Shown here piece by piece: positions 18,301-64,000 of a stretch of 64,000 bases of DNA; within the stretch, counting starts at the first letter, position 1, and each line of letters opens with the position of its first letter. A program made the translations under genes and the position numbers. Source of the DNA: Branchiostoma floridae. Taxonomy: Eukaryota > Chordata > Leptocardii > Amphioxiformes > Branchiostomatidae. The stretch lies in NCBI RefSeq assembly GCF_000003815.2, contig NC_049987.1:6503781-6567780 (forward strand). The letters are read 5' to 3'. The notes under the pieces are model-generated. The model was not told the origin of the DNA, ran no database searches, and saw only the letters and a program-made list of their open reading frames with translations.

Positions 18301-21300
18301 CTAAGCTGGAACAGCTCAATGCCGTACGTATGCTTACTTGCCAAAGAACGATTATGGGGGATCACATATTGCTGCAATTTTGTACGTCATAATGGTTCAA
18401 GATTACACCCACGTTTCTCATGGGACATCCGCCAATACTCATTATTCATATCATATCCCTACAGACAACCTTGGAAGACCTGCAGAAGGAGGAGGACAAG
18501 GTCAACAACCTCAGCAAGCTCAAGGCCAAGCTCGAACAGAACTTGGATGACGTACGTAATGCTCTACATCTAATATTCATACTTTGCTAAAGGCTGATCA
18601 ATTCCTTTCAGAATGAAGAGCTAAAACTAGAGTTCGGCGACCTCATACCTTTATGAAATATTTAGAGCTTTTGTAAATTTTATGCAGATGACTTCCACAT
18701 TTTCATGATTTATGCATGGTGATGTTCATCATTGACTAACATACATATGTCACAAGTATAAAATTCCCATCATTAATCATTAGGAGGTTTTGCAATTGTC
18801 GCATATATTGTGCAAATCAGTTTATTCATATTTGGTATGTGCTTATGTTCCATCTATTATAATTTACATGAGTTACATTTATGGTCCAGTTATTGAAAAC
18901 AATGTAATTATGCAATTTCCATATTAATCATGCAAATTAAGTCCTCATTTGCGTTACATGTAAATCATTATGAACAGCTTCGCCTAAGCTACCTGCATGC
19001 TTAAAGTGATGTCACGCCTTTCCTTTGTGCAGTTATCGTCTTTGGAATGTCTTGACAAAAACGCCCCTGCAGTTTCAAAGTTACATGTCAGGGGGCTGAA
19101 ACTTCCTCCACTCTGCCATAACGCTAGAAGATATCTACCACCCAAATGTCATGACCATATCATGTCCGGGACAAGACATTAAAAAACCGCTATGATTATT
19201 CACATTAATTATGCAATTGTCCTCCTATTTTGCCTAATTACATTATTTCATTTTGTACAATATTGTATAAGGTACCTACATACCAAAAATCATGAAAATC
19301 CGCTGTTCCCTTCTTGAGTTATCCTCTTCGGAAGTTTTTGACAAAAATGTCCTTGCTATCCCAAAACAAGCCGCTAGGGGGCCCAAACTAATGTCACTTC
19401 TTCCTGAGCACAAGAGCCATATAACACCCAAAATTCGGGACCATATATTGTTCAGAACACGAGATAGCAAAACCGGAAGTTGCGCTGCAGTACCAAGGGA
19501 AGCCGGGCCCAAAATCCAACCATTTCCAGCTTTCATCACACCCCACCAACACACCAAGTATGAAACCAATCCATGCAGCCGTTCTTGAGTTATCTTGTAC
19601 ACACACAGACAGACAAACGCTAGTGAAAGTATAACCTCCATGACATTTTATGGAGGTGATAATGAGCCCATTCTTTTTGCACCTTCTTCCTCATCTTTAA
19701 ATCTTTTTAACGCTTTCTTTTCCCCATATCTAGCTGGAGGAGAACCTGGATCGCGAGAAGAAGGCGCGTGCCGAAGCCGAGAGGCTGAAGAGGAAGCTTG
19801 AGGGTGACCTGAAGGCCGCACAGGAGACTTTGGGAGGTCTGGAGAACGAGAAGGCCGACCTGGAGGAGCGCATCAAGAAGTATGAAATTATTTTTTGCTC
19901 TCTATAGTTCTAAACTATCAAAGAGTAAGAAAACACACATATAGACAAAATAAATTAAAGACGGGTTTATAGTTCATCCCGAGATTTTAAAATCTTCACT
20001 CATATCTCTTGCTGCTTCCGACAGGAAGGAGTTTGAGATCAAGGGCCTTGAGGCTAAGCTGGAGGACGAGCAGGGTCTTGTAACCTCTCTGCAGAAGAAG
20101 ATCAAGGAACTGCAGGGCCGCACCGACGAGCTTGAGCAGGAGCTCGAGTCCGAGAGGAATGCCCGTGCCAAGGTCGATAAGCAGAGGGCTGACCTGGCTC
20201 GTGAGCTCGAGGATCTGGGAGACCGTCTGGAAGAGGCCGGTGGTGCCACCGCCGCCCAGGCTGAGGTCAACAAGAAGCGCGAAATTGAGCTACAGAAACT
20301 TCGCCGCGAGCTGGAGGAGTCCAACATGCAGCATGAGGCCACCGTCGCTGCCCTCAGGAAGAAGCTGACCGACGCTAGCTCTGAGCTGGGCGAGCAGGTA
20401 GAGAACCTGCAGCGCGTCAAGGCCAAGCTGGAGAAGGAGAAGACCACCCTCAAGATGGAGGTCGATGACCTGGCCACCAACGTCGAGGCCATCACCAAGG
20501 GCAAGCTGAACGTGGAGAAGGCAAATCGCGCTCTCGAGGAGCAGATTGCCGAGTCCAACGTCAAGATCGAGGAGTCCGGCAGGCAGATCCAGGAACTTAC
20601 ATCCCTGAAATCCCGTCTGGAGACAGAAAACTCCGAGATCGCCCGCCAGCTCGAGGAGTCCGAGAGCCAGTGCAGCCAGTTGGGCCGTGCCAAGAGCATG
20701 CTCAACCAGCAGCTCGAGGAGCTGAAGCGCCAGCTTGAGGAGGAGACCAAGACCAAGAACCACCTGTCTCACCAGCTGCGTGCTGCCCAGCATGACTGCG
20801 ACACTCTGAAGGTTCAGCTGGAAGAGGAGCAGGAAGGCAAGGCCGAGATCCAGCGTGCCCTGTCCAAGGCTAACACAGAGGTCACTGCCTGGCGTGCAAA
20901 GTACGAATCCGACGCCATTCAGCGCGCCGAGGAGCTGGAAGATGCCAAGAAGAAGCTGGCTTCCCGTCTGCAGGACGCTGAGGAACAGGTCGAGGCTGCC
21001 AATGCCAAGTGCAGCTCTCTGGAGAAGGCCAAGAACAGGCTCGCCGGTGAGGTCGAGGACCTCATGATCGACGTTGAGCGGGCCAACGCTGCAGCAGCTC
21101 AGCTGGAGAAGAAGCAGCGTCTGGTCGACAAACAGATTGGCGAGTGGAAGACCAAGTGCGAGGAGATCAGTGCCGAACTGGAGACCTCTACCAAGGAGGC
21201 TCGTGCCTATGCCAACGAGCTGTACAAGCTGAAGGGACAGTATGAGGAGACTCTGGAGACCCTGGAATCGCTCAAGAAGGAGAACAAGGCTCTACATGGT

Positions 21301-25946: not shown

Positions 25947-28900
25947 CTACTCGTCCTGCTTGGACTGTTCAGATACAGAGAAGAAAGAACAGAAGATACA
26001 GTGAGAAAAAAGAAGAGAATAGGAAAGAAGGAAAAAATGAAATGAGATCGAAATGACAGCAAGAAACAGTCCTTCGTAACAAATTTCTTTCCTGTCAGTA
26101 TGTTGTTGGCTTAATCGCAAGTGCTAGCCCCTTGTACTAACCACCGGTCACTCAGGCAGCCCCTAGCTCTATGCCCCAACGCAAAGTCAAAGGGATACAG
26201 CCAAACCTTTACACTTAACTACCTCTACGTATGTACGCTCCATTTGCAAAATGAAACCACTTTTGATAGTCCTTAAGATAAAAATCCCCTGGGTGGTCGT
26301 CTTGGTCAGTATGAGTCTTTTTTACAAGCAGAGAAATAAAGCATGTCTCCTTACCTTCTTGGTTCCCGCTGCGGGGTTCCCGCTGTGGTACTTGGCCCTC
26401 AGCTTGGCAAGGGCGCTCTCGGCGATGTCGGCGCGCTCCTCGGCATCCTCCAACTGGTGCTGCACCTTACGGAACTTAGCCAGGTTCACGTTGGCGTTCT
26501 CTTCCTGTGAGGTGCGAGGTAAATCTCTTGGTCATGAGCATTGGTACAGAGTAAAAGACAAGACCAGAGCAAGTCAGCCTTCGGTAAAAAAAAACAGCAA
26601 TAACTTCTGCAAGAACGCAAGTATAGAGCAAGTAAGACCCAAACCACTAAGTGATTCTCGGGTGATGGGGAAGTAAATTATATGAACACCACAACACAAG
26701 AAAAAAAGGCAACACCTAACTAAGAGGATGACTATACGGTGGACGATTATCAGACAAGGTACTTCCTTGGACGTACGATACTTCCTTTAAGGGTCGAAAG
26801 ATTATCTTACCGATTCCTCGGACTGCCTCTTGTACGTCTTGATCTTGATCTGCAGTTTCTCCACCAGCTCCTGGAGACGTTCCTGGTTCTTACGGTCCTC
26901 GTCCGACTGGAAGGTCATCTCCTTGAGACGGCGCTCGTTCTTCCTCAGGTTCTTCAGGGTCTCCTGGTGGCGCCTCTGCTCGGCGTCGAGCTCTGCCTCC
27001 AGGTCGTGGTTCTGCATTTAGGAACAATGTGGTTAATAGACGCCCTCTTGTGGTTTAATCGCGTACTTCAACCAGCATAGTTCAAGTGCCGCACCAAATA
27101 GTGACTAAGTGCTTGAAATACCAACTGGCACCACTGTGGTTTGTGCGTCATGGGTCAAATGAGGTAACGGTGACCTGACAATAGCCTTGGTTGCCATATG
27201 CTAGATAGTTTAATGAATACCCCCTCCCCTAACCACCTAACTAAAATGGCACCCAAGCTAAGATGTCAGTACTACTGCAGCCTACGTGTTGACATAGGTT
27301 CATGTGCTCAGGAGCCTGCTTGACTGGTTAGTAACTACTGAAAGAAAAAGACCCGAGTACAGATCGCCTACCGTTGCAGCTAAATTTCCAAGCTGAGACC
27401 TGAAGGTCATTGCGTTCAGATTTTAAAGGACTCCAATGTCAGACACTAATAGCTTGTCATCGAAACCGTATCTGTTTCTGATGGTGATGCCCCGAAAGTA
27501 GTTGTGTCGGAACAGTGTCAGAAGTTCAAAGTCACAGATGCCGATCACATGACGCTCCTGGCATATGGTCAGGGACGCACAATGCACAACCGCTTCAAGC
27601 GCCCCATTACGAAACACAACAAATTTGCAGTTATATGTACTCTCCAAGCAGAGGTTGGTGGGGAAAATCGTGACCTTTTCCTTCCATCCGTATTTTTGCG
27701 ATCGTTGGTGGGAAAGCCGATCGGAAAAAAACGGATGAAAGGAAAAGGTCACGATTTTTCCCACCAACCTCTGCTTGGAGAGTAGTTATACTGCTGGGGC
27801 TAGTTATATTTTTGTATGCAATGACCTTATCACACGTTTGCAACTAAGCCGTTTAGTTCAAAAAGTTAGAACAGCTTTGTAACAGTTTCAAAGTACATAC
27901 CAATGCGTAAGGACAACTACTTTATCCCTAACAATTGGATTTTTTTGTTTGTTTTTTAAGTCAGCATCCCTATCAGAAATCTTAGGTACTGGCTGTTTCG
28001 TGTTCTTTCGTAATAATCTCTCATCACCTTAGTCTCGAGCTTCTGCAGGTGACGCTTCCCGCCCTTCAGAGCGATGGTCTCAGCTTCGTCCAGACGACGC
28101 TGGAAGTCCCGGATGTTCTCCTCCAGGTTCTTCTTGACCTTCTCTAGATGGGTGACCTTGTCGGACTCCTGCCTCAACTCATCCGCCATGCGGCTGGCCT
28201 GTGAACAACCGGCAACATTCAGCCTCTATAGTATACCAAAATTGGCTGCCAGGGGATATTGCTTTTTTTCAGTCCTAAAGTCCTAATGTCCTAGTGCCGA
28301 CATATCAAGAAGTTACTAAAAGGATTCGTCGATAAAGGTTGGACATATAGGTAATAACATACATCAAAAGGCAGTTACTCAAGCAATTGGATATGATTTA
28401 ATTATTGATTTACTAAACAGATTCCTTTGTAGGTGTTTCACTCACATCAGCGATGGCCTTCTTGGCCTTCTCCTCGGTCTGCCTGGCGTCGTTCTGGGTC
28501 TCCTCCAGCTCATTCCCCATCTGCTGCAGCTCGCCCTCCAGCTTCCGCTTGTGGGCCGACAGGGCAGCGTTCTGGGTACTCAGTTCATTCAGCCTGGGTA
28601 TTGGGAAGACATGCTTAGTTAAGGATTCTTCATTCTTGGCCTGTTGTGGATTAGACTTAGGTGAGCCAAAGAACAAGATCTCGAACGTCCGACGTCCGTG
28701 AGCATACGCACAAATTATGCTCATCACTAATTCTTATCACATTTTGTGTGTTTTGTTGTCCTTTATATGATAAATACTTTAGATTTCCGCAAAAACAACC
28801 AGGCGTCGGTGTGGAAATCTTATGTGTGGGACTGTGGGTCCATACCTCTCGGTGGCCTCCATGACTTCCGCCTCGCAGATCTTGCGGTTCCTCTCGGCGA

Positions 28901-30140
28901 TCTCCATCTGCGCGCGCAGCTCGTTCAGCTCGGAGGTGTACATGTTAACGCGGCGCTCAGCCGTGCTGCAGCGCTCACGGAGCTCCTCCTTTGCCCTCTG
29001 CTCGTCATCAAGCTGGACCTGAGGATCAACAAGGACAATGATCTTATTCCATATTCATGTTGAGAACGGCTAAAAGCAATGCTCAATGACTAAAAACCGC
29101 TCGTCGTAAATTTGGATCTAAAGATGAACAAATATCCGGATGATTTATTTTGTTTCTTAAATTACCTCTTCAGCAAGATTCTGGGGAACTGCACGGCGAC
29201 AAATTAATTAATGGGTATCTTTACAACATACAGAGCAGCTTTTACAGAGCTATGGCTCATAAGATGTTGCGTGTAATAGATATTGCATTTGAGAACAAGC
29301 TTGGTGTAACTACCGGCCAACATTTTCATGCATCTCCTCCGCGCTACCGTACCTGCATCTCCTGCAGCTGGTTGGTGTACTTGGCCAGTAGTTTTCTAGC
29401 CTCAGAGTTGGCCTTGTTCGCCGTGTCCAACTGGACCTCCACCTCGTTCAGGTCCGACTCGATCTTCTTCTTCTGGCGGATGGCTTCAGCGCGACCCTTG
29501 CTCTCCACCTCCAGGGAGGTCGTCAGGCTCTCGATAGATCTTGCGTGGTTTTTGCTATGCGTTGATGAAATAGAAACGTCAATTATTTGTCAGGAGCGGC
29601 CATGGATCATGACAGTGAAAAACAAGAACGACGTAAAATGATTACATGCACACAGAGAACATACATCAGCTTTACATTTTATCTATGTAGTAGCCGGCTA
29701 ATTCTGTTATCGATTTAGGAAAACGGAAAGTGATGAAGAATAGTATGGTAGTGCTCTCAAGTTATGACAAGTCAAAGTTATTATATGATTGTAATGAAGT
29801 AGCAAACAGTTGGGTGCAAGTCCAGTATCATTAGTCCAGTTTCATAAGAAACAGCAACGAGCTCTGATGCAGAAAAGTCTGTCCTTGAACTCGACCTACC
29901 GTGTGGTCTCGAACTCCTCCTCCTTCTCTGCTAGTCTCCGGTCGATGTCGGACTTGACCTGAGAGAGCTCCAGGTTCAGGCGGAGGACCTTGCCCTCCTC
30001 CACCTCCAGCGCGCCTTCGGCCTCCTCTAGAGCAGTGTGCATCTCCTCCTTCTCCACTTCAATTCGCTTCTTGGTCTTCTCCATCTCGTGCACCTGCTTG
30101 GTCGCCTCGGAGAGGTGGTCACTTATGTCATGGACCTCGT
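25947..30140 (-). CDS. Gene C exons 35-42: distal LMM, assembly region and tail
   Basis: The exons are 30140-29900, 29554-29353, 29018-28846, 28593-28446, 28198-28028, 27011-26811, 26504-26355 and 25964-25947 (residues 1506-1939). Exons 36-38 total 523 nt, matching the single exon in A and B. The exon at 27011 begins NHDLEAELD where A, B and D have VRDLE. The tail reads [10 protein letters not shown], then SKQDE-stop from an 18-nt final exon. The acceptor of this exon has a clear pyrimidine tract (TTCTTTCTTCTCTGTATC) and keeps the frame. The final exon is the least certain part. Confidence 0.88.
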
Positions 30141-33100: not shown

Positions 33101-36100
33101 TTCACAAGATATGACGTATCTGTGTCAGAGTGTGATTTCTTGAACCGTTCAGCGATAACGCCGTACCGTGAGCTCTTTGATCTTCTTCTGCAGCTGTGCC
33201 ACCATACTCAACTCGTCCTCCAGCCTGTTCTGAACGGCGCTAAGCTCGAAGTCGCGTCTGTGGAAAACATAACAAGGGCAGCGTCAAGCACATTCATTAT
33301 AAACAGTGGTAGAAGTTTGTGAATATGGTAAGTCATTATCTATCATTTTATGTTAAAAGTATTGTATTCTAACAGTTAATATGGATAGTGCATAGCGGGC
33401 AAAGTTCTATTGAATCGTACTTCGATAGTTTCCCTTTTGTCTTGAAGAGACAATAGTGATGTATGTGTCTTCACAACAAACCAAGGTCCAACAAACAAAA
33501 CTTCCTGGCACGTTTGACCAATTGCTGATGACACGTATCTTCAAGGTCACGGGTTAATAAGATCACGTATCCGTAACTCTCGCGAGTTTACGTTCTGAAG
33601 TGCTTGGTCATCAGTATTGATGCTGAATAAGGCGAGAGTAGTCGTTGAAAATTTGATCCGTGTGTACTTTTGAGTTAAAACAAAGTTTAGCATTGTACTA
33701 CAAAGTTCCACGTACTTCTTGAGCTTCTCCTCGTGCTCCACCTTGAGCCTCTCCAGCTCCCCAAGGCTGTCCAGAGCCTGCTTCAGGTCCGCCTCCAGCT
33801 TCTTCTTCGCCCGCTCGGCGTCAGAGCGGACTTTCTTCTCAGCATCCAGCATGTCTTGCAGCTGAGGAGACATGCCATTTGTTTAATTATGTAAGACACT
33901 CACTCCAAACAAACAAATCAGTATGTATAACTGTTGGGATGAGCATATTGGTTAAAATCTATTAGATATCAATTTGCCTCATTTTTGACGTAATTAGCCT
34001 CTTTTGCCCTTACATGAAAAAAACGCAAAGCGAAATACGGTGTGTCTCACCCTAAATTGTGTAAAGCTCGTTACATTGCTTCTAACAAGACATTATATAC
34101 ATTGGTGCAAATAATTATGTACACATAATACATCAAATGGAAAGCGTAGCTACGTGGCTTCACGACTTCCTAAGACGTACCTCTTCGATCTGCTGCTCTA
34201 GCTTGACCTTGAGCTTGTTCAAGTGGTTGGTCTTGTCTTCCTCCGACTGAAGGTCATCCAGGGTTTGCTGAAACACGGAAGGAAGAAGTCAGCTTACACA
34301 AGGTGGCATCTTATCATTCAATAAACAGATTTAACCTGTCTTTTATTCTAATGTTAACAGTACATTCTGCGCATCTTAGGATGGAATACTCTAAATTTGA
34401 GATGATACAATGTATAGCATGTACACCATAGGTACTGCCGACGAGCAAATCTAAAAGCTACGGCACTCTACATACGAATAACATGAAGCTGTTCTGTGAA
34501 GAAAATATAGTTTACTCTCTGTGATACACAGACTCCACATTCAATATCAATATCTATACTCACCGCTTGGATTTCCTCGAGTTTCTTCTTCTCGCGGGTC
34601 AGACGCTTGATGGTGTTGTCCATGTCAGCTAACTCTTCGCCCATCACGCGAACCTTAATATCGAAAGCGGATGATTAGTTGTTTGCGATCTTGTATCCAT
34701 TTTCATTTCAATCCAGCTAAGACATTAAATCTTTGCCGTTCATACGATTGCAATTCAAAAGTATAAAACAGCCGTTCCTCTCAACAACTGAGAAAACCCA
34801 TTTGTCCTTTGTCAAATTTTTGTTTCATTTCCTGATGGCTGTCTTACCTTGTCTTCCACAGCGCGCTTGTCCTTCTCCGAGCGGGCGAGGTTCCTCTCGA
34901 GATCTTCGACATCCTTCTTCAGCTCGCTCACCTACAAAGAAGACATTGCAGTGATGGGGGTAAGATTCTATTAGTACTAATAAATGCGATAAAACTATAT
35001 ACTGCTATACCGTGCTGTACATCATTGGCGCAACTTGAAGTTGAAGAAACGTCCATATGTGGAAATCAAAAGCAGGTCAATCACGTGTTGGACAAAAAGT
35101 GAAGAAAGTAATAGCAGACGGATAGTTCCAACTAGGGTGAAAAGCACCTTTTATATTTGCAATAGTCTCCAAGCAGACCCCACGGTGCCTTAGAAATAGT
35201 ATCAAAGCTGGCAAGGCACCAGGTGCCCGTTTGACTCCCTTAGCTGGCTATCTCCCTTTGGCCGGCTATTCTCCTTTGCCAGCTTTAATACTATTTCTAA
35301 GGCACCGTAGGGTCTGCTTGGAGACTATTTGCAAGAGCTACACACTGCAATATTCATGTACCTCCTTCTCTGTGTTTCCGCCTCGTTTGACTCTCTGGAT
35401 AGTGCCCTTATTGCTATATCCTCAAATCAAATTGTGTCAACTAAGGATCGGCTGAAATTGCCTAGATTTCGTCATGCAGGTCAATAGGACAGCCTAGTCG
35501 CAGCCGGGAATGTCCAAACGCCATTGACACGTTGGTCACACAGAACATAGCCTCTATATACCTCGTTCTCGAGCTTGCGGCGAGTGTGGTTCAGCTGTTG
35601 GTTGTTCTCCTCTGCCTCCTCCAGATTCTCCTTGATCTCCTCCAGCTGTGCGTCCAGGTCCGCCTTACTCTTGATCAGCATGGCGTTACGCTCCTCCGAG
35701 TCGGACACCACGTCTTGCTCCTGTGTTTACAAATAACACCATCGTCTTTTAAAATCTTACCCTTATTTTCACATCATGATACGAACATTTCTATTCAGGG
35801 TAGGAAAAATTTTCAAGGAAACATTCAAACATGTGTTCTTGCACGTTTCTTACAAAAACACGTATCATCATTAAAGTTGGCGTATGGCCCTTATCCGTTC
35901 ATTCGAGTCGTTTCAATTATTGCAAGTACAAAAACACGTATCATCATTAAAGTTGGCGTGTGGCCCTTATCCGTTCATTCGAGTCGTTTCAATTATTGCA
36001 AGAAAACGTACGGCTTGCAACTGGATGACGAGATCATTCTTCTCATTGGTGAGGGCGTTCAGCTTCTGCTCCAGCTCTTTGCGCAGTTTCTCCTCCTTCT

Positions 36101-42100: not shown

Positions 42101-45100
42101 TGCCGTCGCACTCGGCCTGCTCCTCGCGCGGCCTCTGCTTGAACTTCATGTTGCCGAAGTGCATGATGCCGGCCGTCAGACGGTACACGTTGAACTTCTC
42201 TTCTTGCGTGAAGCCCAGCACGTCATACGCCTCGTCGGTCAGCTTCATCTCCTCCATGTCGTCCATGGTCGGAATAGTGGTTTCACCCTGCGATTGAAAC
42301 ATGTGAGATACTCCATTTGTTTCCCTTTTGTGCAGGCATAGGACATTCCATTATGTTATTATATGTTGAAGCCCCCCCCCCCCCCCGGATTTTTAAAACC
42401 GCCAACAGACGAAATGCATTCCCTGGACAAATACATAAATAGAGTAAAATGAAATGTCACATAGGGCAGTGCGGTAGGTATGCGAAAAAGTCACTCAGGG
42501 CGGTAGTTTCACCCTACGATACAAACAAGTCCCTTGTTCCTTTTCTGCAACAGATAAGCTCCTATGACATACGTTGCACGACAGTAAATTTGCAACATTT
42601 TTAGAAGGCGGATGTGCCGTGCAGATTTCAATTGTTTTGTGACGGAAATTCCGTCATCCCCTTAAGGCAAATCAGTTTAGAAAATATCGTATAGCGTTTC
42701 TACAGAACAAAAAAAACGATAGTTACAGATAAGGAAACGAACTTACGATAGCCAAGAACTTGAACTCCTTTGCTCCATGACCAGCAAGAAGAAGTTGCTC
42801 TGTGTGTTAAATCAGAATTGACATGAATTGACCAAGTTGCAAAAGGCTGTATGCGTTACAACACATATTAACCAATAAGGCGATACCGATTCATTTACAT
42901 GGTTTTCTGTCATTTTATGAAGAGTTAGCAAAAGGAAAACAGACGAAAGAGACTGGAATCTGACCATATTCCGAAACTGTGCACCAAGGCAAAAACTTTC
43001 GCTTTAGAATTTGTATGATTTTCTTCGGAATTCTTCGGTCCCCGCACCCCCGTAGGAAGGCCTGATGGGGTTCATGATTCAACCGCTTGCTCGCGTGTAC
43101 TCACCCAGGTTCTGCGGGAAGGCCTGGGACAGCAGCTGATAGAAAACGTGGTACCCACGCTCCGCGGGAAGCTGCGAGATCACACGGGACTTCTCCAGTA
43201 GATCTGACAAGGACCACGGGAGCAAAATTATTTGGACGATCTTTTCATAACACCTGACGCAACGTGTACGTTATACACATGAATGGCGCCCATTCATGCA
43301 AAAGTAGACAAATACATAAAAGACGGGTGTTGCTATTAGAAACAAATCATTCTAGCCCCATCCTTTTGTCCTTTTGTATGAATATATTAGAGGTTTACGT
43401 GTGTTAGTCTTTATCTTGTAGCAAGTAGAATTGTTATATTTAGTTGATTTTTCTATTTGGTAATTTCGTGCGAAAGTCGGTGTACGGTGTATGAAGTTTC
43501 TATGTAATAATAATAATGTTGTTACTCACAGCCCTCAATGTCGGCACCGGCCAGCTTTCCGTTGGATCCGAAGTGGATACGGATAAATTTACCCTGTGAA
43601 GAGACACAGACTCATCAGGCACGTGATAGCAACCTAGCTACTTCATCAGTCATCTTAGAAAGAGACGCCCCAGAGGACATCGCAGAACATGGAGGGAGGA
43701 CCCAGAGCGTCAAATACGAGCATACAATATACTGTTGAAAACAAGTTATTCCTATCTCTGGAACATTGATAACTCTAGAATAGACGTGGTCAAAGGATTA
43801 CCAAAGAAAACGTTTGGTTTACTTACGAAACGGGAGGAGTTGTTGTTCCTGGTGGTCTTGGCGTTACCGAAGGCCTCGAGGACAGGGTTGGTCTGCACGA
43901 CCTGATCCTCAAGGGTCGCCTGCGTGGAACAGACACAAACACATGACGTGTTATAGCCGCCACGTTGGTCGGTTAAACAAGAAAGACTCACACCTTCAGT
44001 GTACAAACTCATAATTGCTGACACAAGATGTAATAAATGCGGAGATGTGATAACATTCACAAGTTCAAATTCGTCTGACATCCATTATGTCGGATAATAT
44101 TTACGCCATAGCCACATGAGTCCCAAACCAAGGTGTTTTTCTCACTACCCTATGGGAAAATGCGTAACGATTAGAAGACAAAATCGTCGGTGTTTTAAAC
44201 AACCTTGCGTATGCATCAGAACACTGTACCTTCTTTTTCCCTCCTTCCTCGTCCTTCTTGGGACCGCCCAGGGCAGCGACCAGGGCGAAGTAGGAGATAA
44301 CCTTCTTCGTGTTCTCAGTCTTACCGGCACCAGACTCGCCGCTGCACGAACATATTGCACGAACGTTTAACACTTAAAATGCATTTTGCTACCGATGCAA
44401 CTTTAACCTGAGACAACTCAGATCTGGCAAAGCAGGGATCTCGCCAGAAAATACGAGTACGCTGGTCCAGGGGTAAAAACTGCTAAGTCCACATGGTCCA
44501 AACCATTGTTGCATTTCACAAGTACAATGGAGACTTTTTCCATTACATCTCACCTGTAATTGCATTCCAGCGAAATTATTTTCAGTAGAATTTCTAAAAC
44601 AAAAGCTTATTTTTTTTCATTATGAGCTTATTATTGCATGATGGGATCACCACACTTACCGTAAACTGAGACGAAAACTAGCAGTAGCATGCCAATCTAT
44701 AAAACATAGGTAACTAATTAATAGTACTAGATGGTATTTTCGTCTGTGTCCATCAGATGAAGTGGCCGTTACCAAACAAAAGGTAGAAATCACACAAAAG
44801 AAAATAAAACCGAACTTACGTGATCAACATGGACTGGTTCTCGTGCTCTGTAAATGGTAAAAAAGTGAGAGCGTAGTGTATAACGTTACCATTGCATTCC
44901 ATGTAACATCTAGAATCTGCCAGAGAGCCAAAATCAAAGTTGTCATTTGTTTTTCGAACAACTGCCCACATTGGGACTATCACATTCCGTCCACAACGTT
45001 TCCAGTTACAGTATGCTGTCTACAACCAAGCATGTTACCCACAATACATAAAGACATACAACTTCGACAGCACATCATCATCGCACTGCCCATGCGCATT

Positions 45101-52979: not shown

Positions 52980-55900
52980 CTAGGACTCCTCAAATGGCTT
53001 CTGCAATGGAGGGTCGGTATAGAAAAGAGAATAGGTAGGAAATACTGATGAATAGATTCATCAGGCTGGCAAACGTAAAAAAAACATTCCTTGCAACCAA
53101 GTTCAAGTTTTTCTTACATGGCAAGCTTTTATCTGGCACAGGACTGAAATGACTGGAGTTACTTCTCGCGGCTAGATAGACTACAGAAACGTTCGCAGGT
53201 AAGACGAGTGTGGTTGTGTACAGGAGAATTTTTCCTCGTACTAGTTCTATATGTATGAAAATTTACACACTTAGTTGTAGAACTAATGTTATTGTCACCT
53301 TTTGTGACGAAGAGTCCCTTCATCAGAAAGAAAGCGTTATAACTTGACTTGCTTTTCTGTTCGGATGAATGTATTCTCTGAATTCGTTTTAAAAGCTTCG
53401 GTCTAGAGTTAGCCATAAGCTGGTGAGAATTCTGTTGATAAGTATGCTTTGTATTTTTATCTGTGGGTACGTTGAAAATGGGGGATTTTTTACAAGACAT
53501 TATGCTTTCTACATGTGTACCTTAGGAACCTTGGTGCCGCTGGTGTGTGCGGACTGTCCGGCCTGGAACTTGGTGCGCAGCTTGGCCAGGGCGCTTTCAG
53601 AGATCTCCGCGCGCTCAGACGCGTCCTCCAACTCGTGCACCGTCTTCCGGTACTTCGCCAAGTTCACGTTAGCCATCTCCTCCTAAACAGGATATGACGT
53701 GCGGTAAAACGTTAGCCATCTCTTCCTAAACAGGATATGACGTCGGGTAAAACGTTAGCCATCTCCTCCTAAACAGGACATGGCGTCAAGTACAACGTTA
53801 GCCATCTCCTCCTAAACAGGACATGACGTCAGGTACAGGCTCCTAATTCAACAGGATTTGACATCATGCGTAAAGTTAGCCAACTTCTCAATTAACAATA
53901 CATGACGTCGGTTAAAACGTTATCCGTCTGTCCCATAAATATATGACATCAGAAAGAACGTTAGCCATCTCGTAAACAGGGTGTGACATTTGAAACCCCC
54001 TACGAAAGATGACTCATAGACCTCTTTTACCTTTTTGAATACCGTATGATTTCAACTTACCGATTCCTCAGACTGCCTCTTGTACGTCTTGATCTTCAAC
54101 TGCAGTTTCTCCACCAACTCCTGGAGACGTTCCTGGTTCTTACGGTCCTCGTCTGACTGGAAGGTCATCTCCTTAAGACGGCGCTCGTTCTTCCTCAGGT
54201 TCTTCAGGGTCTCCTGGTGGCGCCTCTGCTCAGCGTCCAGCTCTGCCTCCAGGTCACGCACCTGGGTTGGAAGAGAACTTTGAGTAACATCTCGCTAGAG
54301 TGATATACTCCCCAGTTTGGACACGTACGTGCGCGTTGCCCTGTAAGTGTTTATATGTCACGACCCCTCATCACTTGAGTTTCCGAACAAAATTTTATAA
54401 CTATTCTAAACTTATTCTGAAGGCAAATTCTGAACTAATCCTAATTAAGACTAATTCTGAACTAATTCTTTGCAGACGAGCCAAGAATAATAACGCATCT
54501 GTATTGTACTCAAGCATCTAGATTAATTTTGGAACCAGTCAGACGTTTGCAGGTAGCATCCACTACCTTTCGTTGGTGACTTGGAAGACAAGACTAATAG
54601 GGCCGATATACTCACTCTGAACAAAACACAATTCTTGTCGATAAGTGTACCCCAGCTTCTGTAGGTGTACTGCCTTACCCTAGTCTCCAGTTTCTGCAGG
54701 TGGCGTTTCCCGGCCTTCAACGCGATCGTCTCCGCCTCGTCCAGGCGGCGCTGGAAGTCTCGGAGATTCTCCTCAAGATTCTTCTTCACCTTCTCAAGAT
54801 GAGCGTTCTTGTCTTGTTCCTGACGGAGGTCGTCAGCCATGCGCGCGGCCTATTACAGATAAACAGAGGAGCGGTAATCAGCGATGGCAGACTTCACCCC
54901 TTACTACAGCAAGCGCCCTCTAGCAGAACATACAAGAACTGCATTGCAGAAACACTCGTACGTGCACACACACGCACACACAGACACACACACACACATA
55001 CACACACACACACACACGTAATAACTTAGAATTCCTCATTCCATAAACTTTTGCACGTCCTTTCTTTCATTTGTCGACAGTACTAAACCAAACTCTGCTT
55101 CCATGACCTCCATGACAATGGAGACTCACCTCCGAGATGGCTTTCTTGGCCTTCTCCTCCATGTCCCTGGCCTGGCTGGAAAGCTCCTCCAGCTCGTTCT
55201 GCAGCTGCTGAATCTCGCTGTCTGACTTCCTTTTGGCCGTGATGAGCGCCGAGTTCTGCGTGCTGAGCTCCCCCACCCGGTCCATCGCCTCGTGCGCGTC
55301 CGCCTCCGCGATCTGGGGGCAAAGGTTTAGGGCATTACGTCGAATATCCCATACCTCCTCGAAACATTCAGAGTTTCTGTGTCAATTGTGAATTACTTTT
55401 CCATTCATTATTGAAAATTTGTTTTTAACTCTATCTATGCATCCTGCCAGCCTGTGGTATCATCTATGAATCCGGGCCAATCCAATCTTCCCATCCTGCC
55501 AATTAGCCTGATTAAATCTCGCTTATAGCAGCCCACCAAACATCCGCCGGCCCCCGCGGGGAGGTGCCAGTTACAGCCATGGACAGCGGAGTTTGAGTTG
55601 ACTACCTGTCAATCACCAACTGCACCGGTACCATCTTCCTCTTCACACCCTGTCACTTTACAATATTCAAATACAACCGCACACACACCGAGACAAGCGG
55701 TAGTAAACTGTGGATCAAAGTTATAAACCTTTCTGTTCCGCTCGACCATTCCCTGCACTCTCCTGTCCTCTGCAATACTCAAATAACTCAGGAGACACAT
55801 TAAGAAAAAAAAAACGGCAATGTTGACAAATGATTTGAACTTGAACCTTTCTGTTCCGCTCGGCCAGCTCCAGCGCCATCCTGGTCTCGTTCAGCTCCTG

Positions 55901-57004: not shown

Positions 57005-60000
57005 CTTAAAGATAGTAGAATAGTTAGCGATATATTTTATATTTTACTCAAAAACAATTTGGTGCTCCTAAGACTGGAAAGGCTTGACATAAGCAAGAAA
57101 GCTATGAAAACCGTAACGTAATACGTTGTATACGTTTTGCCATATTGATATCTACATTTCATCCTTTTTAGGACAGAAGACTTTAGGCTAACATACGAAA
57201 AAAACGTAATACAAAGTATGCTCTATAATTATACTTTTCCATAACGATTCCGTACGAGCGATTATTTTGGGACCTTGCGACAGACTTTGCAAAACGACTC
57301 ACCGCTGAGTTGCTTGTTTTCTTTCTTAAGTTCCTCCAGCGCGCCTAGTGCGTCTTCGTGAGCCGTCTTGAGACGCATGTTCTCCGCCATGTAGATCCTG
57401 ATCTCCTTCTTCGAGTCCTCCAGCTCCAAGTTGACCTCTTCGCACTTCGTCCGCCACTAAACACGACAACAGAGGTTTTGAAGCCCATGTCACACAGTCA
57501 GGACCTTTTCACGATATCCCACCACTTTCCATCTTAAATTCGTATTCTAGTTCCAGTTCACTGACATCATTTTTCTGCAACTTTGATTCGGCAAAAATTA
57601 GGTCGGCTGGGGCAAACGACGTTTAAAGACTAGTAGGCAACAGTACCGACCAATTTCAATTACAGATGGCCTTGCTCCCAACCATGGTCTGGCTTCACCA
57701 GTACATAGTCTTCAGATGAAGTAAATGTTTACAGAATAAGCACTAATGATTGGTTGATTGGCTGGTTGGTTGATTTATTGATTAATTGATTGATCGATCG
57801 ATTGATTGATTGACTGACTGGCTGACAGTAGATCCTACCTCTGCGATGATCCTGTCAACCATACGCTGTTTCTTCTCGAGGTGGGCCGCCACGCTGTTGG
57901 CTTTCTCCAGTTCTATCATCATGTCCTCCACCTCCGCAGCGAGCCTGTAATAAACTTTTGACTTTGAGCAATTCTTGCCTAAGACATTGTAATGCCTTTA
58001 TCTTTTCTGTCTACTGTCTTCATAATCATTACCATCCGCATACTCATTATCCTCATCATCTGCTGTATCCCACCATTTAATGACTACCAGGATCCAAGGC
58101 AAAAGTAAGCACAAGCCAGTTTTGTGCTCCCTATTGAAATGCTCAGCTCAACTTCCCACAATTTGAGGGATATGAGTACAAACCTGTTCTTCGTCTTTTC
58201 TAGACTACTACACTTGGAGTTTGATATCTCGACTCTTTCCTCCATCTCCTGAAGACGAGTAGCCAGCTTCTTCTTCGCCTCCTCCAGCTCCTCAGTCCTC
58301 TGGATGGCGTCCGTCTCGTACTTGGAGCGCCAGGTGGCCACCTCGGTGTGCGCCTTGGAGAGGGACCGCTGCATTTCAGACTTGCCCTCCTGCTCCTCCT
58401 CCAGCTGCTCGCGGTAGGTGTCGCAGTCGTGCTGGGCCGCTCGTAGCTACGTAGATAGAAACGGAATATCGGTTTTGAAGTCAGGGTTTGAGACCAGAGG
58501 CCGATGCCAGAGCTAGATACGTGATGGAAAGCCTGTTGTTATGGCCACGCACGAAGACTTGAATTTCTATGTCTGTTTCTATCTATCCACGAAGTTCCAA
58601 AGAAAGAGATAGCACATAAGAACCAGTTTATCAAACCAGGCTTTTCAAACCCGAGGCTGATGATAGCTACAGAATTGGATAAAAATCAATTGTCATCTCC
58701 TTCCCTCCACTGACTTCTTGGGAATAAGGTAAATAAGTTCCTTAATCATATGTGTATTTACCTGATGGTTCATGTGGTTTTTGGCTTTGATCTCCTCTTC
58801 CAGTTGGCGCTTCAGTTCTTCAATTTGCTGTAGCAGCATGCTCTTGGTCCTGACAAAACACAATATCACACAGTGTTGTACTCCTACCTTTACTTTGTTT
58901 ACTTTCATTGCCTTCTAGCAGCCAACAGGTCTGGCCAGCACATTTACTTTACATGTCGACCCTTTGTCCACTGGCTACTACATGAGCACTTAAAACTATC
59001 TTATACCGATGACAATGTTGGTCAAAAATATCATTGAACTCTCCAACCGAACCGCCCTACCTGCTGAGCTGGTTGCACTGCGTCTCCGATTCCTCCAGGT
59101 GCCGCACGGCGTCGCTGTTCTCGGATAGCAGGCGGGACTTGAGCGCGGACACCTCCTGCATCTGGCGGGCCAGCTCGTCCGCGCGGATGTTCGCCTCGTT
59201 CATCCCCTCCTCGAGCTGACGACACCGCTTCTCAAGGTTCACCTGTGGTGAAAGATACTCAAAATAAGCCATTTCCTTTCCATAGGTTGCTACAAGATCT
59301 AGTTAGGTTATCGCGTTTCTATAGAGATATTATGTTACCTGTTTTCACACCTTTTGTTCTGTGACTTGCTTCATGTTCCCGGAAATCACGTACCTTTTGT
59401 TTGGTGACCAGCTCCATGTTCCCGGAAATGACGTACCTTTAATTTGTTTGGTGAGCTGGTACCGTTACCGGTGACCTGCTCCATGTTCCCGGATATGACG
59501 TACCTTTTGTTTGGTGACTTGCTCCATGTTCCCGGACATGTCGTCTACCTCGATGCGGAGGGAGTTCTTTTCCTTCTCCAGCTTGGCCTTGACGCGCTGT
59601 AAGTTCTCGATCAGCGTGTTCATCTCGGCCACCTGCTCCGTGTGCTTCTTCCGCGTCGCCGCCACGTTGTTGTCCGCCTGGGCAACGGTAAACACATGTA
59701 CAGGTCGTAAGTCGTAGATAAAGCTGATTAGAAAATACATTCATATAATCAATCCTTTTAGTTGATATATTTTGCCCATTCGACACAGAATGATAGAAGT
59801 TCCGAGAAAGTGTTTGTTTAGTGCAGTGTAACTTAACAAGGCTGATTAATTTACGTGCTATAGCAAACTTTTTTTGCTGCACAATCATCCTTCAATCTAA
59901 CTACGCTGCAATAACACTTACTACCGCGTGGACCTCTTACAACTGTAGTACCAATTACCGCCGCATGGATCTCCTCCAGCTGTAATTCCACTTACCGCCG

Positions 60001-62729
60001 CATGGACCTCCTCCAGCTCCCTGCGGAGCTTGATGATTTCGGTCTCCTGCCGTTTGGCCACCTCTGCTTGCTGCTGGGTCGCGCCGCTGTGCTCCTCCAG
60101 ACGGTCTCCGATGTCGTCCAGCTCTCGCTGCATGTCGTGCCGGGCCTTCTCCGCACGCGCACGCGCGTTGCGCTCGCTTTCAAGCTCCTCCTCCAGCTCT
60201 TCGATGCGCCCCTGGAAAGAGATCAAGATTCTTATTATAACGATCACATTAATTATTGTGATTAACAATAAGCCAGTAGACAAAACACCCAACTGATCAA
60301 GGATTGTATCCCCTGTCCTTCCTTAGACACTATAGTCTCCTTTAATTGCATGGACATCAGGTGCTTACATTGACATCATGCCCTTGCATGGGCAGCATGT
60401 AAGGACAGATACACACGTAAACATATAAGAATTATCACCTGTTGTTCTTTTATCTTCTTCTGCAGTTGCGCCACGAGGCTCTGCTCGTCCTCCAGTCTCG
60501 TCTGGACGGCATTCAGCTCGAAGTCACGTCTGTTTGTAAGAAAAACGTATGTCAGTTTTCATGCGCGAAGCGCGTTTTAGTTATTCGTTGTAACGAAACA
60601 GACACATTACCACAGCTCATGCTTAAAAAATGTAGCCCAAATAGGTATCATTATCTGTAGCAGAGGCAGCGGTCATTCCGTCTTCACGATGGTATCTCTG
60701 GTACTTTCGAAATCCCTGTTTGTGGAAAAAAGGATTTCATGACCTACTAACCCGATGAGACTATCTACTGAGTAGTTATCGGAACATCATATTGCAATAT
60801 ATTGATGCACCACATACTTCTTGAGTTTCTCCTCCAGCTCGACTTTAGCCCTCTCCGTTTCCCCCAGGGTGTCCAGCGTCTGACGCAGGTCGGCCTCCAG
60901 CTTCTTCTTGGTGCGTTCCAAGTCCAGTTTGACCTTCTTCTCGGTGTCCACCAGGCTCTCCAACTGTGAAAAATGTCAGATTTATGCATATAGCTGTTTA
61001 TCTCTGTTTTTCGTCCTATTTCAGTGCTCACTGAACTACTACAGTACTAGAGTACTATATAGAGCATTGTCACCTATACATTTGTATTAGTAACTGGCTA
61101 TGTGGCTCATACTCGCTGCAGCACATTATAGGAAAAATCATTGATAACCCCACAGTACATGTTTTCCTACTAATTACATAGTGATTTTCAGGTGGAGTTC
61201 GAACATTTGGGTAGTTTTTTATTTATTTTTTATTTATTAGGATTCTCCACACTGGAGGGTATGTCAGGTGTCAAAAGACACCTTTTCGAAGCCGCCATAC
61301 GGTTGTTACGTTAAGTTGTTTATACAAACTCCCATGCCAATCTGTACTTCTTTATGTTCTGAACATCATACAGGTGGTGGAAACGAAACTGATGACATTT
61401 CTCACCTCGTCAATCTGCTGCTCTAACTTGACCTTGTTCTTGGTGAGGTGGTTGACCTTGTCTTCCTCAGATTGGAGGTCATCGAGGGTTTGCTGAAAGG
61501 TAAATCAAGTTGAAGCTTAAGACATAAGAATTAGTCCAGAAGAACCTACACTGACACATTCTATCGAAAACAACACCATACAGTCATGTTTTCAAGTCAA
61601 AGGTGAAGTCGCGTCTCAATGTTACAATCCAGTACAGTGAAACCCAAGTGCAAATCATTCAAGTGGCTCACGGCCTTGTTTGTTCTTTTTTTTTTTTGGG
61701 GGGGGGGGGGGACTACAAACCGCTGGTTGCAATCGTAATCGGCAGAGATGTAGATGTTTCTCACCGCTTGCAGCTCCTCGAGTTTCTTCTTGTCTCGTGC
61801 GAGCCTCTTCATGTTCTCCTCGGCTTCCACCAGCTCGTCCGACATGGCCCGCACACGGTTCTCCACAGCCCGCTTGTCCTTCTCAGACCTGATAACGAAA
61901 GGCAAACGCAAAAATTATATCAGTTTGTTTCTATATTCATGACAGACTCAAATCGGTCTGTGAGTGACTTTTCATAGACATAGTCACAAAATAGTAGACT
62001 AAGTGCTGCCCAAAGTGTCACTAGACACGGGGAAAATCAGTCACAAAATATAACAAATATCTTGCAGGCGAATACCAGCCGATACCTAGCGAGGTTGCGT
62101 TCCAGGTCTTCAACGTCTTTCTTGAGTTCGCTGCACTCCGTCTCAAGTTTCCGTTTCTTGCCGTTAAGGGTGGCGACGGCCTCCGATTCCTCCTCCAGAT
62201 TCTCTTTGATCTCCTCCAGCTGCGCCTCCAGGTCCGCTTTGCCCTTGATCAGCATGGCATTGCGCTCCTCCGAGTCGGAGACGACATCTTGCTCCTGAGG
62301 AATGAGATCTCGATCTCTTCATTTTACAATTTGAAAAAATAATGTGTGCTGCAATTGCATATTTCGACCTTTCAGTCATCCTTTTTATTTGTCTATTGAA
62401 AAACGTACGAGACACAATGATGGTAGCTCAGAGCAGTTCAGTTCATCCTCTGAGAGGAAGCCATAGGATTTCCACAATTTTTTGTCCAGCATGTTGGCCA
62501 GATTCTAGTAAATTGCAGATATCACCTGGATTTTAAGACGAAACCCAGCCCTTACCGCTTGCAGCTGGACGACCAGGTCGTTCTTCTCTTGAGTGAGAGT
62601 CACGCACTTCTCCTGCAGCTCTTTGCGAAGCCGCTCCTCATTGGCCAGTCGCTCCTCGATGTCCTTCATCTCCGACAGCTTCCTCTGCAGTTCCTCCTCC
62701 TGGCGGGCGCCCTGGAGTAGCGGCTTGAT
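52980..62729 (-). CDS. Gene D: striated-muscle myosin heavy chain, 3' part (rod and tail)
   Basis: This is the rod of a fourth myosin II heavy chain. Twenty-one exons on the minus strand join in frame to 3333 nt (1110 residues plus stop), starting [14 protein letters not shown] just after the lever arm. Motor and IQ exons must lie right of 64000. Summed lengths equal gene C over the aligned rod (333, 390, 351, 260, 241 and 523 nt blocks), and the total differs only by a five-residue longer tail. Proteins C and D are closer to each other than to A and B (for example [17 protein letters not shown] is shared), and both lie on the minus strand. Several intron positions differ from C, and four introns carry tandem copies of exon edges. 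No frameshift or internal stop is seen, so the gene looks functional. Confidence 0.94.
53668..53990 (-). repeat. Minisatellite built from a gene D exon 5' edge and its acceptor
   Basis: The exon 53682-53521 begins GAGGAGATGGCTAACG after CCTGTTTAG. That junction is repeated upstream in the intron: a unit of about 50 bases (TGTTTAG/GAGGAGATGGCTAACG plus about 27 intron bases with GACGTCAT) recurs about seven times between the exon and 53990. Copies nearest the exon are almost perfect and distal ones decay. At least three upstream copies keep an AG acceptor. Confidence 0.85.
54961..55018 (+). repeat. (CA)n microsatellite
   Basis: An interrupted CA repeat of about 55 bases in the gene D intron 54850-55129. 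Confidence 0.9.
55728..55867 (-). repeat. Intronic copy of a gene D exon 3' edge with its donor
   Basis: AACCTTTCTGTTCCGCTCG occurs at the donor edge of exon 55999-55847 and again at about 55726-55744 in the downstream intron. The sequence beyond it (CTCTGCAATACTCAAATAAC) has a second diverged copy near 55660-55680, giving a degenerate array with a period of about 110 bases. Confidence 0.7.
57303..62729 (-). CDS. Gene D exons d1-d13 (in window): subfragment-2 and proximal LMM
   Basis: The exons are 62729-62556, 62294-62086, 61888-61765, 61492-61406, 60963-60818, 60529-60439, 60211-59996, 59677-59504, 59242-59061, 58849-58762, 58446-58184, 57944-57839 and 57456-57303. Introns after EEVHAA (59996), NHMNHQ (58762) and RIIAE (57839) are absent at the same place in gene C. 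C introns inside the 216-nt exon are absent here. The sequence is coiled coil throughout. The donor at 58184 is GTTTGT, which is weak. Confidence 0.93.
57740..57838 (+). repeat. GATT-rich simple repeat beside a gene D donor
   Basis: ATTGATTGATCGATCGATTG-type repeats run from about 57747 to 57825, ending close to the donor of exon 57944-57839. Simple sequence; no role evident. Confidence 0.75.
59349..59535 (-). repeat. Tandem copies of a gene D exon 3' edge and donor
   Basis: The end of exon 59677-59504 (GAACATGGAGCAAGTCACCA, then AACAAAAG/GTACGT) is repeated three more times in the following intron, at about 59350-59393, 59394-59436 and 59437-59503. The unit is 42-67 bases and each copy contains CCGGGAACATG and a GTACGT or GTACGT-like donor. 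The copy adjacent to the exon carries extra inserted bases. Confidence 0.85.
59915..60018 (-). repeat. Tandem copies of the 216-nt gene D exon's donor edge
   Basis: GCTGGAGGAGGTCCATGCGG CG/GTAAGT at the 3' edge of exon 60211-59996 is followed in the intron by two further copies (about 59958-59980 and 59921-59943), each ending in GTAA. The period is about 37 bases: roughly 22 from the exon and 15 from the intron. This intron position is private to gene D. Confidence 0.8.
61240..61263 (-). mobile_element. Truncated retroposon 3' end (copy 2)
   Basis: GGATTCTCCACACTGGAGGG plus TATG is identical to 11738-11761 and is also preceded on the plus strand by TTTATTTATT-type sequence. On the minus strand this reads as a retroposon 3' terminus with an A/T-rich tail. 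Confidence 0.45.
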
Positions 62730-62996: not shown

Positions 62997-63265
62997 AGGG
63001 TGAAATGCCCGAAGTTGTCCTAAGTTAAGTTAGATGTCAGAAGTTGTCCAAAGTTGTCCAAAGTTGTCCGTAGTTGTCCGAAGTTATGACGTCACGCTAA
63101 CCATGACGTCATCCTAACTTTGGACAGTCAGCCGGGGGTGTACGTAGTTGTCCGAAGTTGTCCGAAGTTATGACGTCACCATAACCATGACGTCATCTTA
63201 ACTTTGGACAGTCAGCTGGGGGGTGTACGGAGTTGTCCGAAGTTGTCCGAAGTTATGACGTCATT
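62997..63265. repeat. Left satellite arm, ~84-bp unit with TGACGTCA
   Basis: About three degenerate units contain AGTTGTCCGAAGTTATGACG, then TGACGTCATC.TAACTTTGGA. Each full unit has two TGACGTCA or near-identical palindromes. The sequence is related to the reverse complement of the right array (63464-64000). Confidence 0.8.
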
Positions 63266-63463
63266 ATAATTATTGTGTGCATTGTTCAAACGAACGTTAA
63301 GAGGAGAAATAAAAGACAAAAAGACTTGAAATAAATGAATTTTTTACAATGCATGAACATTGATTTTGTGCTGATTAATGTGCATCTATATTTTATTCAT
63401 ATATATGCGTGAGTGGTGTGTATCTTATTTACACATATATACGTTTTTACTATATATTAATTA

Positions 63464-64000
63464 ACTTAGGACAACTTCGCACACTTGTTGACCTACCCTG
63501 CCCACTGTCCAAAGTTAGATGACGTCACGTAACTTTGCACAACTTAGGACAACTTCGCACACTTGTTGACCTACCCTGCCCACTGTCCAAAGTTAGATGA
63601 CTTCACGTAACTTTGCACAACTTAGGACAACTTCGCACACTTGTTGACCTACCCTGCCCACTGTCCAAAGTTAGATGACGTCACGTAACTTTGCACAACT
63701 TAGGACAACTTCGCACACTTGTTGACCTACCCTGCCCACTGTCCAAAGTTAGATGACGTCACGTAACTTTGCACAACTTAGGACAACTTCGCACACTTGT
63801 TGACCTACCCTGCCTCCTGTCCAAAATTAGATGACGTCACGTAACTTTGCACAACTTAGGACAACTTCGCACACTTGTTGACCTACCCTGCCCACTGTCC
63901 AAAGTTAGATGACGTCACGTAACTTTGCACAACTTAGGACAACTTCGCACACTTGTTGACCTACCCTGCCCACTGTCCGAAGTTAGATGACGTCACGTAA
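63464..64000. repeat. Right satellite array, 78-bp tandem unit
   Basis: The phrase ACACTTGTTGACCTACCCTG recurs exactly every 78 bases (63481, 63559, 63637 and onward), about seven nearly identical units running off the window edge. Each unit contains GATGACGTCACGTAACTTTG; one unit carries CTTCA in place of CGTCA. The high identity indicates recent amplification. Confidence 0.95.

Follow-up and report, generated by a model that had tools for sequence, protein, structure and literature searches.

A 43-bp tandem array astride the last intron-exon junction of an amphioxus muscle myosin gene, most likely a tolerated splice-site mirage

Does a gene whose intron carries several near-copies of its own 3' splice site make use of them, or does it simply tolerate them? 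The question is raised by a 64-kb stretch of the Branchiostoma floridae genome (contig NC_049987.1, positions 6,503,781 to 6,567,780; hereafter the window, numbered from its first base), which includes segments of four muscle myosin heavy chain genes, A and B on the forward strand and C and D on the reverse strand. A minisatellite array lies in the last coding intron of gene D, and its repeat unit carries the splice acceptor together with the first bases of the exon that follows, the last coding one. We judge it about 85% probable that this array is a mirage, i.e., a minisatellite that arose when a 43-bp segment astride the intron-exon junction was duplicated in tandem, and that it is a tolerated passenger in an intron whose acceptor at 53683 is nearly always the one used.

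When the repeat unit was anchored on the genuine acceptor, it comprised 26 intron bases ending in TTTAG followed by 17 exon bases (GAGGAGATGGCTAACGT), 43 bp in all, and thus straddled the exon-intron boundary as expected of a mirage. Eight such units make up most of the intron: U0 (the genuine exon edge) to U3 are 43-mers that span 53666-53837, and U4 to U7 are decayed and reach up to 54000 (Table 1). Tandem Repeats Finder reported 4.0 copies of period 43 at 53666-53835 with 91% matches (score, 277). The copies lying 43, 86, and 129 bp upstream of the junction (-43, -86, and -129) retain TTTAG/GARGAGATGGCTAACGT (the slash marks the junction), such that the acceptor is kept in register by three of the seven upstream copies, in line with the pattern of "many, not all" that characterizes mirages. 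Among the decayed units, U5 to U7, which still include an exon part, each outscored all 300 of their base shuffles, whereas U4 did not (6.0 versus a maximum of 7.0 in 300 shuffles), and its assignment rests on its place in the series.

The array had been noticed in an original prediction made from the letters of the DNA, which described about seven repeats of a splice acceptor plus exon start upstream of the real exon. Both the count (seven upstream copies plus the real edge) and the nature of the unit, which is in exact register with the junction in U1 to U3, were borne out, whereas a unit of ~50 bases with 16 exon bases had to be corrected to 43 and 17, respectively; the array itself is present in the predicted interval, 53668..53990, but its copies continue to about 54000. 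The match of the repeats to the exon edge, on which that description depended, was confirmed with an exon-edge probe that scored 72 against its own intron, relative to a maximum of 28 over 1000 dinucleotide shuffles. In the mechanism that we propose, tandem duplication of the junction-straddling 43-bp segment would have created the array, and the copies would be confined to the intron side because selection on the myosin rod holds the exon side. The age gradient suggested by the units implies that the exon-proximal ones may be young or homogenized and that the distal ones are decaying.

Table 1. Features of gene D discussed in the text, in window coordinates
Feature	Coordinates	Strand	Remarks
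Last coding intron, gene D	53683..54060	-	378 bp, phase 0; donor GTAAGT at 54060, genuine acceptor AG 53684-53683; spliced alignment
Last coding exon, gene D	53512..53682	-	57 codons, ends KVHM, then stop codon; matches myosin C-termini
Preceding exon, gene D	54061..54261	-	VRDLEAELD...KRQSEES; spliced alignment
U0, genuine exon edge	53666..53708	-	26 intron + 17 exon bases
U1	53709..53751	-	intact acceptor at -43 (AG 53727-53726); 40/43 identical to U0
U2	53752..53794	-	intact acceptor at -86 (AG 53770-53769); 37/43 vs U0
U3	53795..53837	-	intact acceptor at -129 (AG 53813-53812); 39/43 vs U0
U4	53838..53872	-	decayed, exon part gone (ATTAG/GAGCC); 26/47 alignment columns vs U0
U5	53873..53916	-	decayed; 34/45 alignment columns vs U0
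U6	53917..53957	-	decayed; 31/46 alignment columns vs U0
U7	53958..54000	-	decayed, acceptor AG gone (TTTACGAG); 32/48 alignment columns vs U0
CTAAC, candidate branch point of genuine acceptor	53711..53715	-	29 nt from intron end, within exon-derived part of U1
Second boundary array	59905..60018	-	37-bp units = exon end + donor at 59995; 3.1 copies
Third boundary array	59349..59503	-	exon end + donor 59503; AAG/GTACGT exact at +67, +110; AAG/GTGTGA at +153
Single extra copy of exon end + GTT of donor 55846	55726..55748	-	22/23 bases
Diverged copy of acceptor edge 60530	60707..60739	-	score 24, at threshold

The case for near-exclusive use of the genuine acceptor is made by the protein. Compared with proteins of known structure, the last coding exon of gene D matched myosins, at their C-terminus, in 10 of the 11 matches listed; the top-listed match was v31Bagel8, in which no stretch passed on its own. 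Joined across the intron, the last 293 residues of D aligned with Myosin-4 over 275 residues on each side and thus with no net gap over the joint. The joined D rod scored 561-576 bits with Myosin-7 and Myosin-4, relative to 460-497 bits with other myosins; one D rod segment and the last exon scored best with one of those other myosins, so the affinity of the rod is mixed.

The acceptor copies were scored as well. Against an acceptor matrix for which the remaining 51 modelled introns were used, the genuine site scored 5.9 (6 of the 52 introns score lower) and the copies at -43, -86, and -129 scored 4.7, 4.4, and 6.3, respectively, so the several intact acceptors of the original prediction are indeed retained and scoreable, their precise number being three. 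When we examined 18 AGs in the last D intron (those ending within the first 40 intron bases were excluded), only the genuine one yielded the conserved myosin end, and the other 17 led to a stop within 30 codons. From each of the three intact upstream acceptors, translation runs for 18 residues before it meets a stop, since 43 is one more than a multiple of three and the next copy is read as GGC TAA. Upstream use had been predicted either to insert residues or to shift the frame; the shift was upheld, but the insertion was not, since all 17 alternative AGs stop early and therefore leave no tolerated peptide insertion in the present sequence. Given that the alternatives examined truncate the protein, the exon at 54061 must be joined to the acceptor at 53683 nearly always. 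Exon definition favors the splice site next to the true exon, and by favoring that site the spliceosome would ignore the copies. The array should thus be harmless for as long as splicing continues at the original site, and it is most likely a neutral, tolerated passenger.

Boundary duplications recur in gene D, which carries three strong ones (at 53683, 59503, and 59995) and two weaker ones (at 55846 and 60530). We took a census of 104 junctions from the 52 usable rod introns that spliced alignment gave in genes A to D (D, 19; C, 19; B, 10; A, 4), one doubtful A intron having been dropped; the head regions of B and C were represented by rough models only, with 15 introns each, and one acceptor copy was found there. 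In a strict count that required at least 6 bases on each side of the junction, a score of at least 24, and a copy in the junction's own intron, 5 of the 104 junctions (four in D, one in C) had a copy, in contrast with 1 of 2024 mismatched probe-intron tests, a null set of intron interiors that are slightly shorter than the real targets. At a score of at least 36, the corresponding figures were 3/104 and 0/2024. The 55846 copy falls outside the strict count, as it shares only three intron bases, and with a wider reach (400 bp on both sides; score, 24) seven of the 104 junctions matched. Two of these seven, at 18323 and 18551 in gene B, resemble each other, being successive exon ends and donors of similar sequence, and were excluded from the five. 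In the intron with its donor at 59503, the donor copies at +67, +110, and +153, the last of which is weaker, each read into a stop.

Several findings weigh against this interpretation. The acceptor at -129 slightly outscores the genuine site (6.3 versus 5.9), and the splice choice that we propose is deduced from protein conservation only. RNA folding does not provide a convincing cause for it: in one predicted fold of the intron, the genuine AG was the most open (unpaired, 0.49 versus 0.07, 0.33, and 0.31 at the copies), but its pyrimidine tract was barely more open than that of the nearest copy (0.43 versus 0.42, 0.30, and 0.35). Nor were junctions in gene D clearly favored over other intron positions in our duplication and placement controls. 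Three of 38 D junctions lay within a local duplication, relative to 84 of 1101 sampled intron positions at a score of 36 and 102 of 1101 at a score of 30; the duplicated positions probably belong largely to the same arrays. When stretches of 329, 202, and 114 bp were placed at random with no more than 45 exonic bases, they spanned a junction in 58%, 41%, and 29% of the allowed placements, respectively, and all three would do so in about 7%, a figure that is at best suggestive. Two arrays with units of at least 30 bp (at 31650 and 35851) occur in the rod of gene C, both purely intronic. Special targeting of junctions is thus not supported by the duplication counts or the placement controls, and tandem duplication in a short-intron gene, combined with selection on exons, could be enough to produce the arrays. 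The second of the gene C arrays, at 35851-36002, consists of two near-identical 76-bp units (98% matches) and starts 9 bp inside the donor of the C intron 36011..35721.

A different role for the array is suggested by a branch-point-like motif within the unit. At the genuine acceptor and at those at -43 and -86, CTAAC occurs 29 nt upstream, in the exon-derived part of the preceding unit, where it corresponds to the Ala-Asn codons of EEMANV; for the acceptor at -129 the motif is CTGAC, at 17 nt. A branch point for the following acceptor could thus have been supplied by every round of duplication, in which case the 43-bp unit would be a self-sufficient 3' splice-site module and the genuine acceptor would now depend on the repeat. 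The array would then be no passenger, and its loss would weaken the intron. CTRAY, the branch-point-like consensus, was enriched 15 to 50 nt from the acceptor (17 of 52 introns versus 57 of 490 control stretches), but exact CTAAC showed no clear excess over the same range (2 of 52 versus 10 of 490), which argues against the branch-point reading, and we consider the module doubtful.

Still less probable is a regulated switch, in which the upstream acceptors would sometimes be used to make a myosin that ends in about 18 other residues in place of its last 57. This would alter filament assembly, for which the end of the rod is important. The three intact acceptors do score near the genuine one, each has a branch-point candidate, and nonsense-mediated decay might spare the message, given that the stop lies in the last coding exon. 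On the other hand, the outer copies are decaying, and the array is not conserved: the last D intron has no detectable similarity to the introns at the same place in its paralogues (best local scores: C, 18; B, 14; A, 16). Such a switch is accordingly quite unlikely.

We consider it very unlikely that the array is a step toward intron gain, the exon fragment becoming a micro-exon and the units between becoming a new intron. That route has been put forward for amphioxus globins (PMC3087553), and a potato gene acquired an intron through a boundary-crossing duplication (PMC4974935). In gene D, every intact exon copy begins with GARGAGATGGCTAAC and is then followed by GT, for 15 in-frame bases, and the best GT of the array (3.2; next best, 2.8) exceeds the lowest-scoring genuine donor (2.3). 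Directly downstream of the intact exon copies, however, the GTs score only -1.1 to -1.7, relative to a median of 8.3 for the 52 genuine donors, and AGGT is absent from the array. The gene D duplications likewise show no excess at unshared introns, two being in introns absent from C (59995 and 55846) and three in shared ones (59503, 60530, and 53683), as read by eye from the gene models. In its present state the array thus appears able to provide acceptors but scarcely any new exons, and the proposed route to new introns that the original prediction mentioned finds little support here. Least credible of all is an assembly artefact, a false tandem expansion of one edge. There are 100 N in the window, repeats are easily misassembled, and the draft genome reportedly contains an amphioxus globin mirage in aberrantly assembled form (PMC3087553); on the other hand, the units differ in their substitutions and degree of decay, and independent boundary arrays occur elsewhere in gene D.

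Other features of the locus were noted alongside these arrays. The D intron 55313-55846 has a very weak donor, GTTCAA (score, 2.6; second weakest of 52), and is lacking from the C and B models; its exon end was copied once, 118 bp into the intron. Within the 37-bp donor unit at 59905-60018, a 16-base GT...AG stretch adjoins a 21-base (seven-codon) exon-like piece, probably by coincidence. Diverged intron copies were also seen in gene C, at 29099-29131 for the acceptor edge 29019 (score, 26) and at 42503-42530 for the acceptor edge 42288 (score, 31), the latter edge being taken from the rough head model. Minisatellites with units of about 78-84 bp occupy 63041-64000, upstream of the first modelled D rod exon; 11 of the 15 window copies of the palindrome TGACGTCA lie there, and one, at 53824, lies within U3.

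The four genes are clustered, as are the myosin heavy chain genes of B. floridae, which number at least 12 (PMC3869912); this clustering and the mirages would by themselves make a lancelet the likely host. Gene A contributes the end of its rod to the window, and gene D was modelled from 62732 down to 53512, without its head. In gene B, a single very long exon makes up the rod at 20025-21298, a region with many introns in C and D; the difference resembles intron loss in B. The exon before the array, D 54061-54261, is identical to C 26811-27011 at 188 of 201 nt, although the introns that follow lack detectable similarity (best local score, 18), a pattern expected from gene conversion or strong constraint. 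At gathering thresholds, Rfam gave 0 matches in the window.

The phenomenon itself is already known from amphioxus (PMC3087553 and PMC3902484). The name mirage comes from a 2002 paper, as dated in PMC3087553, and is used for tandem duplications of exon-intron boundaries in amphioxus, such as those in the globin genes BflGb6 and BflGb9 and, as cited there, in Adh3; RT-PCR suggests that the globin genes are spliced regularly, and length instability was noted (PMC3087553). As in gene D, many but not all copies in these genes keep their AG or GT, and the units vary in similarity. The unit sizes differ, being 43 and 37 bp in gene D, 150-160 bp in the globins, and 10-72 bp in Adh3 (PMC3087553), and gene D further differs in encoding a myosin heavy chain and in bearing five boundary duplications by itself, three strong and two weak. 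Lancelet PGBD5 has likewise been described as having tandemly repeated splice-site regions, as has, as cited, troponin C, the latter a muscle gene like gene D, although the PGBD5 units measure 60 and 108 bp (PMC3902484). Amphioxus VCBP3 resembles gene D in having complete or partial exon copies in adjoining introns, some with canonical splice sites, but in the portion available these are described as data not shown and without repeat units (PMC2632668).

Comparable events outside amphioxus are reported to have had a different outcome. The segment duplicated in potato RdRp likewise extends over a 3' intron-exon boundary and includes an acceptor, a pyrimidine tract, and a putative branch site, yet there a new intron is spliced via a formerly exonic donor, whereas gene D has only weak donors and no indication of a new intron (PMC4974935). 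Human internal tandem repeats are similar in size and number (about 30 bp, about four copies), and some lie at exon-intron boundaries, but they are reported to form novel introns (PMC2812944), of which gene D shows no sign. No mirage in a myosin gene turned up in the literature searched, a weak negative, as subscription papers were mostly beyond the reach of the search.

If the array is a tolerated mirage, as we propose, a muscle motor gene joins the few loci known to carry boundary minisatellites, and the placement control suggests that no particular tie to splice sites is required for such arrays. Experiments with duplicated splice sites are a familiar idea, and gene D is a natural one: one of its introns has a series of near-identical acceptors, and others have donors that are repeated identically or in similar form. 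Given that only the exon-nearest of the acceptors examined yields an intact protein, RNA from this locus would reveal how accurately the spliceosome chooses among near-equal sites.
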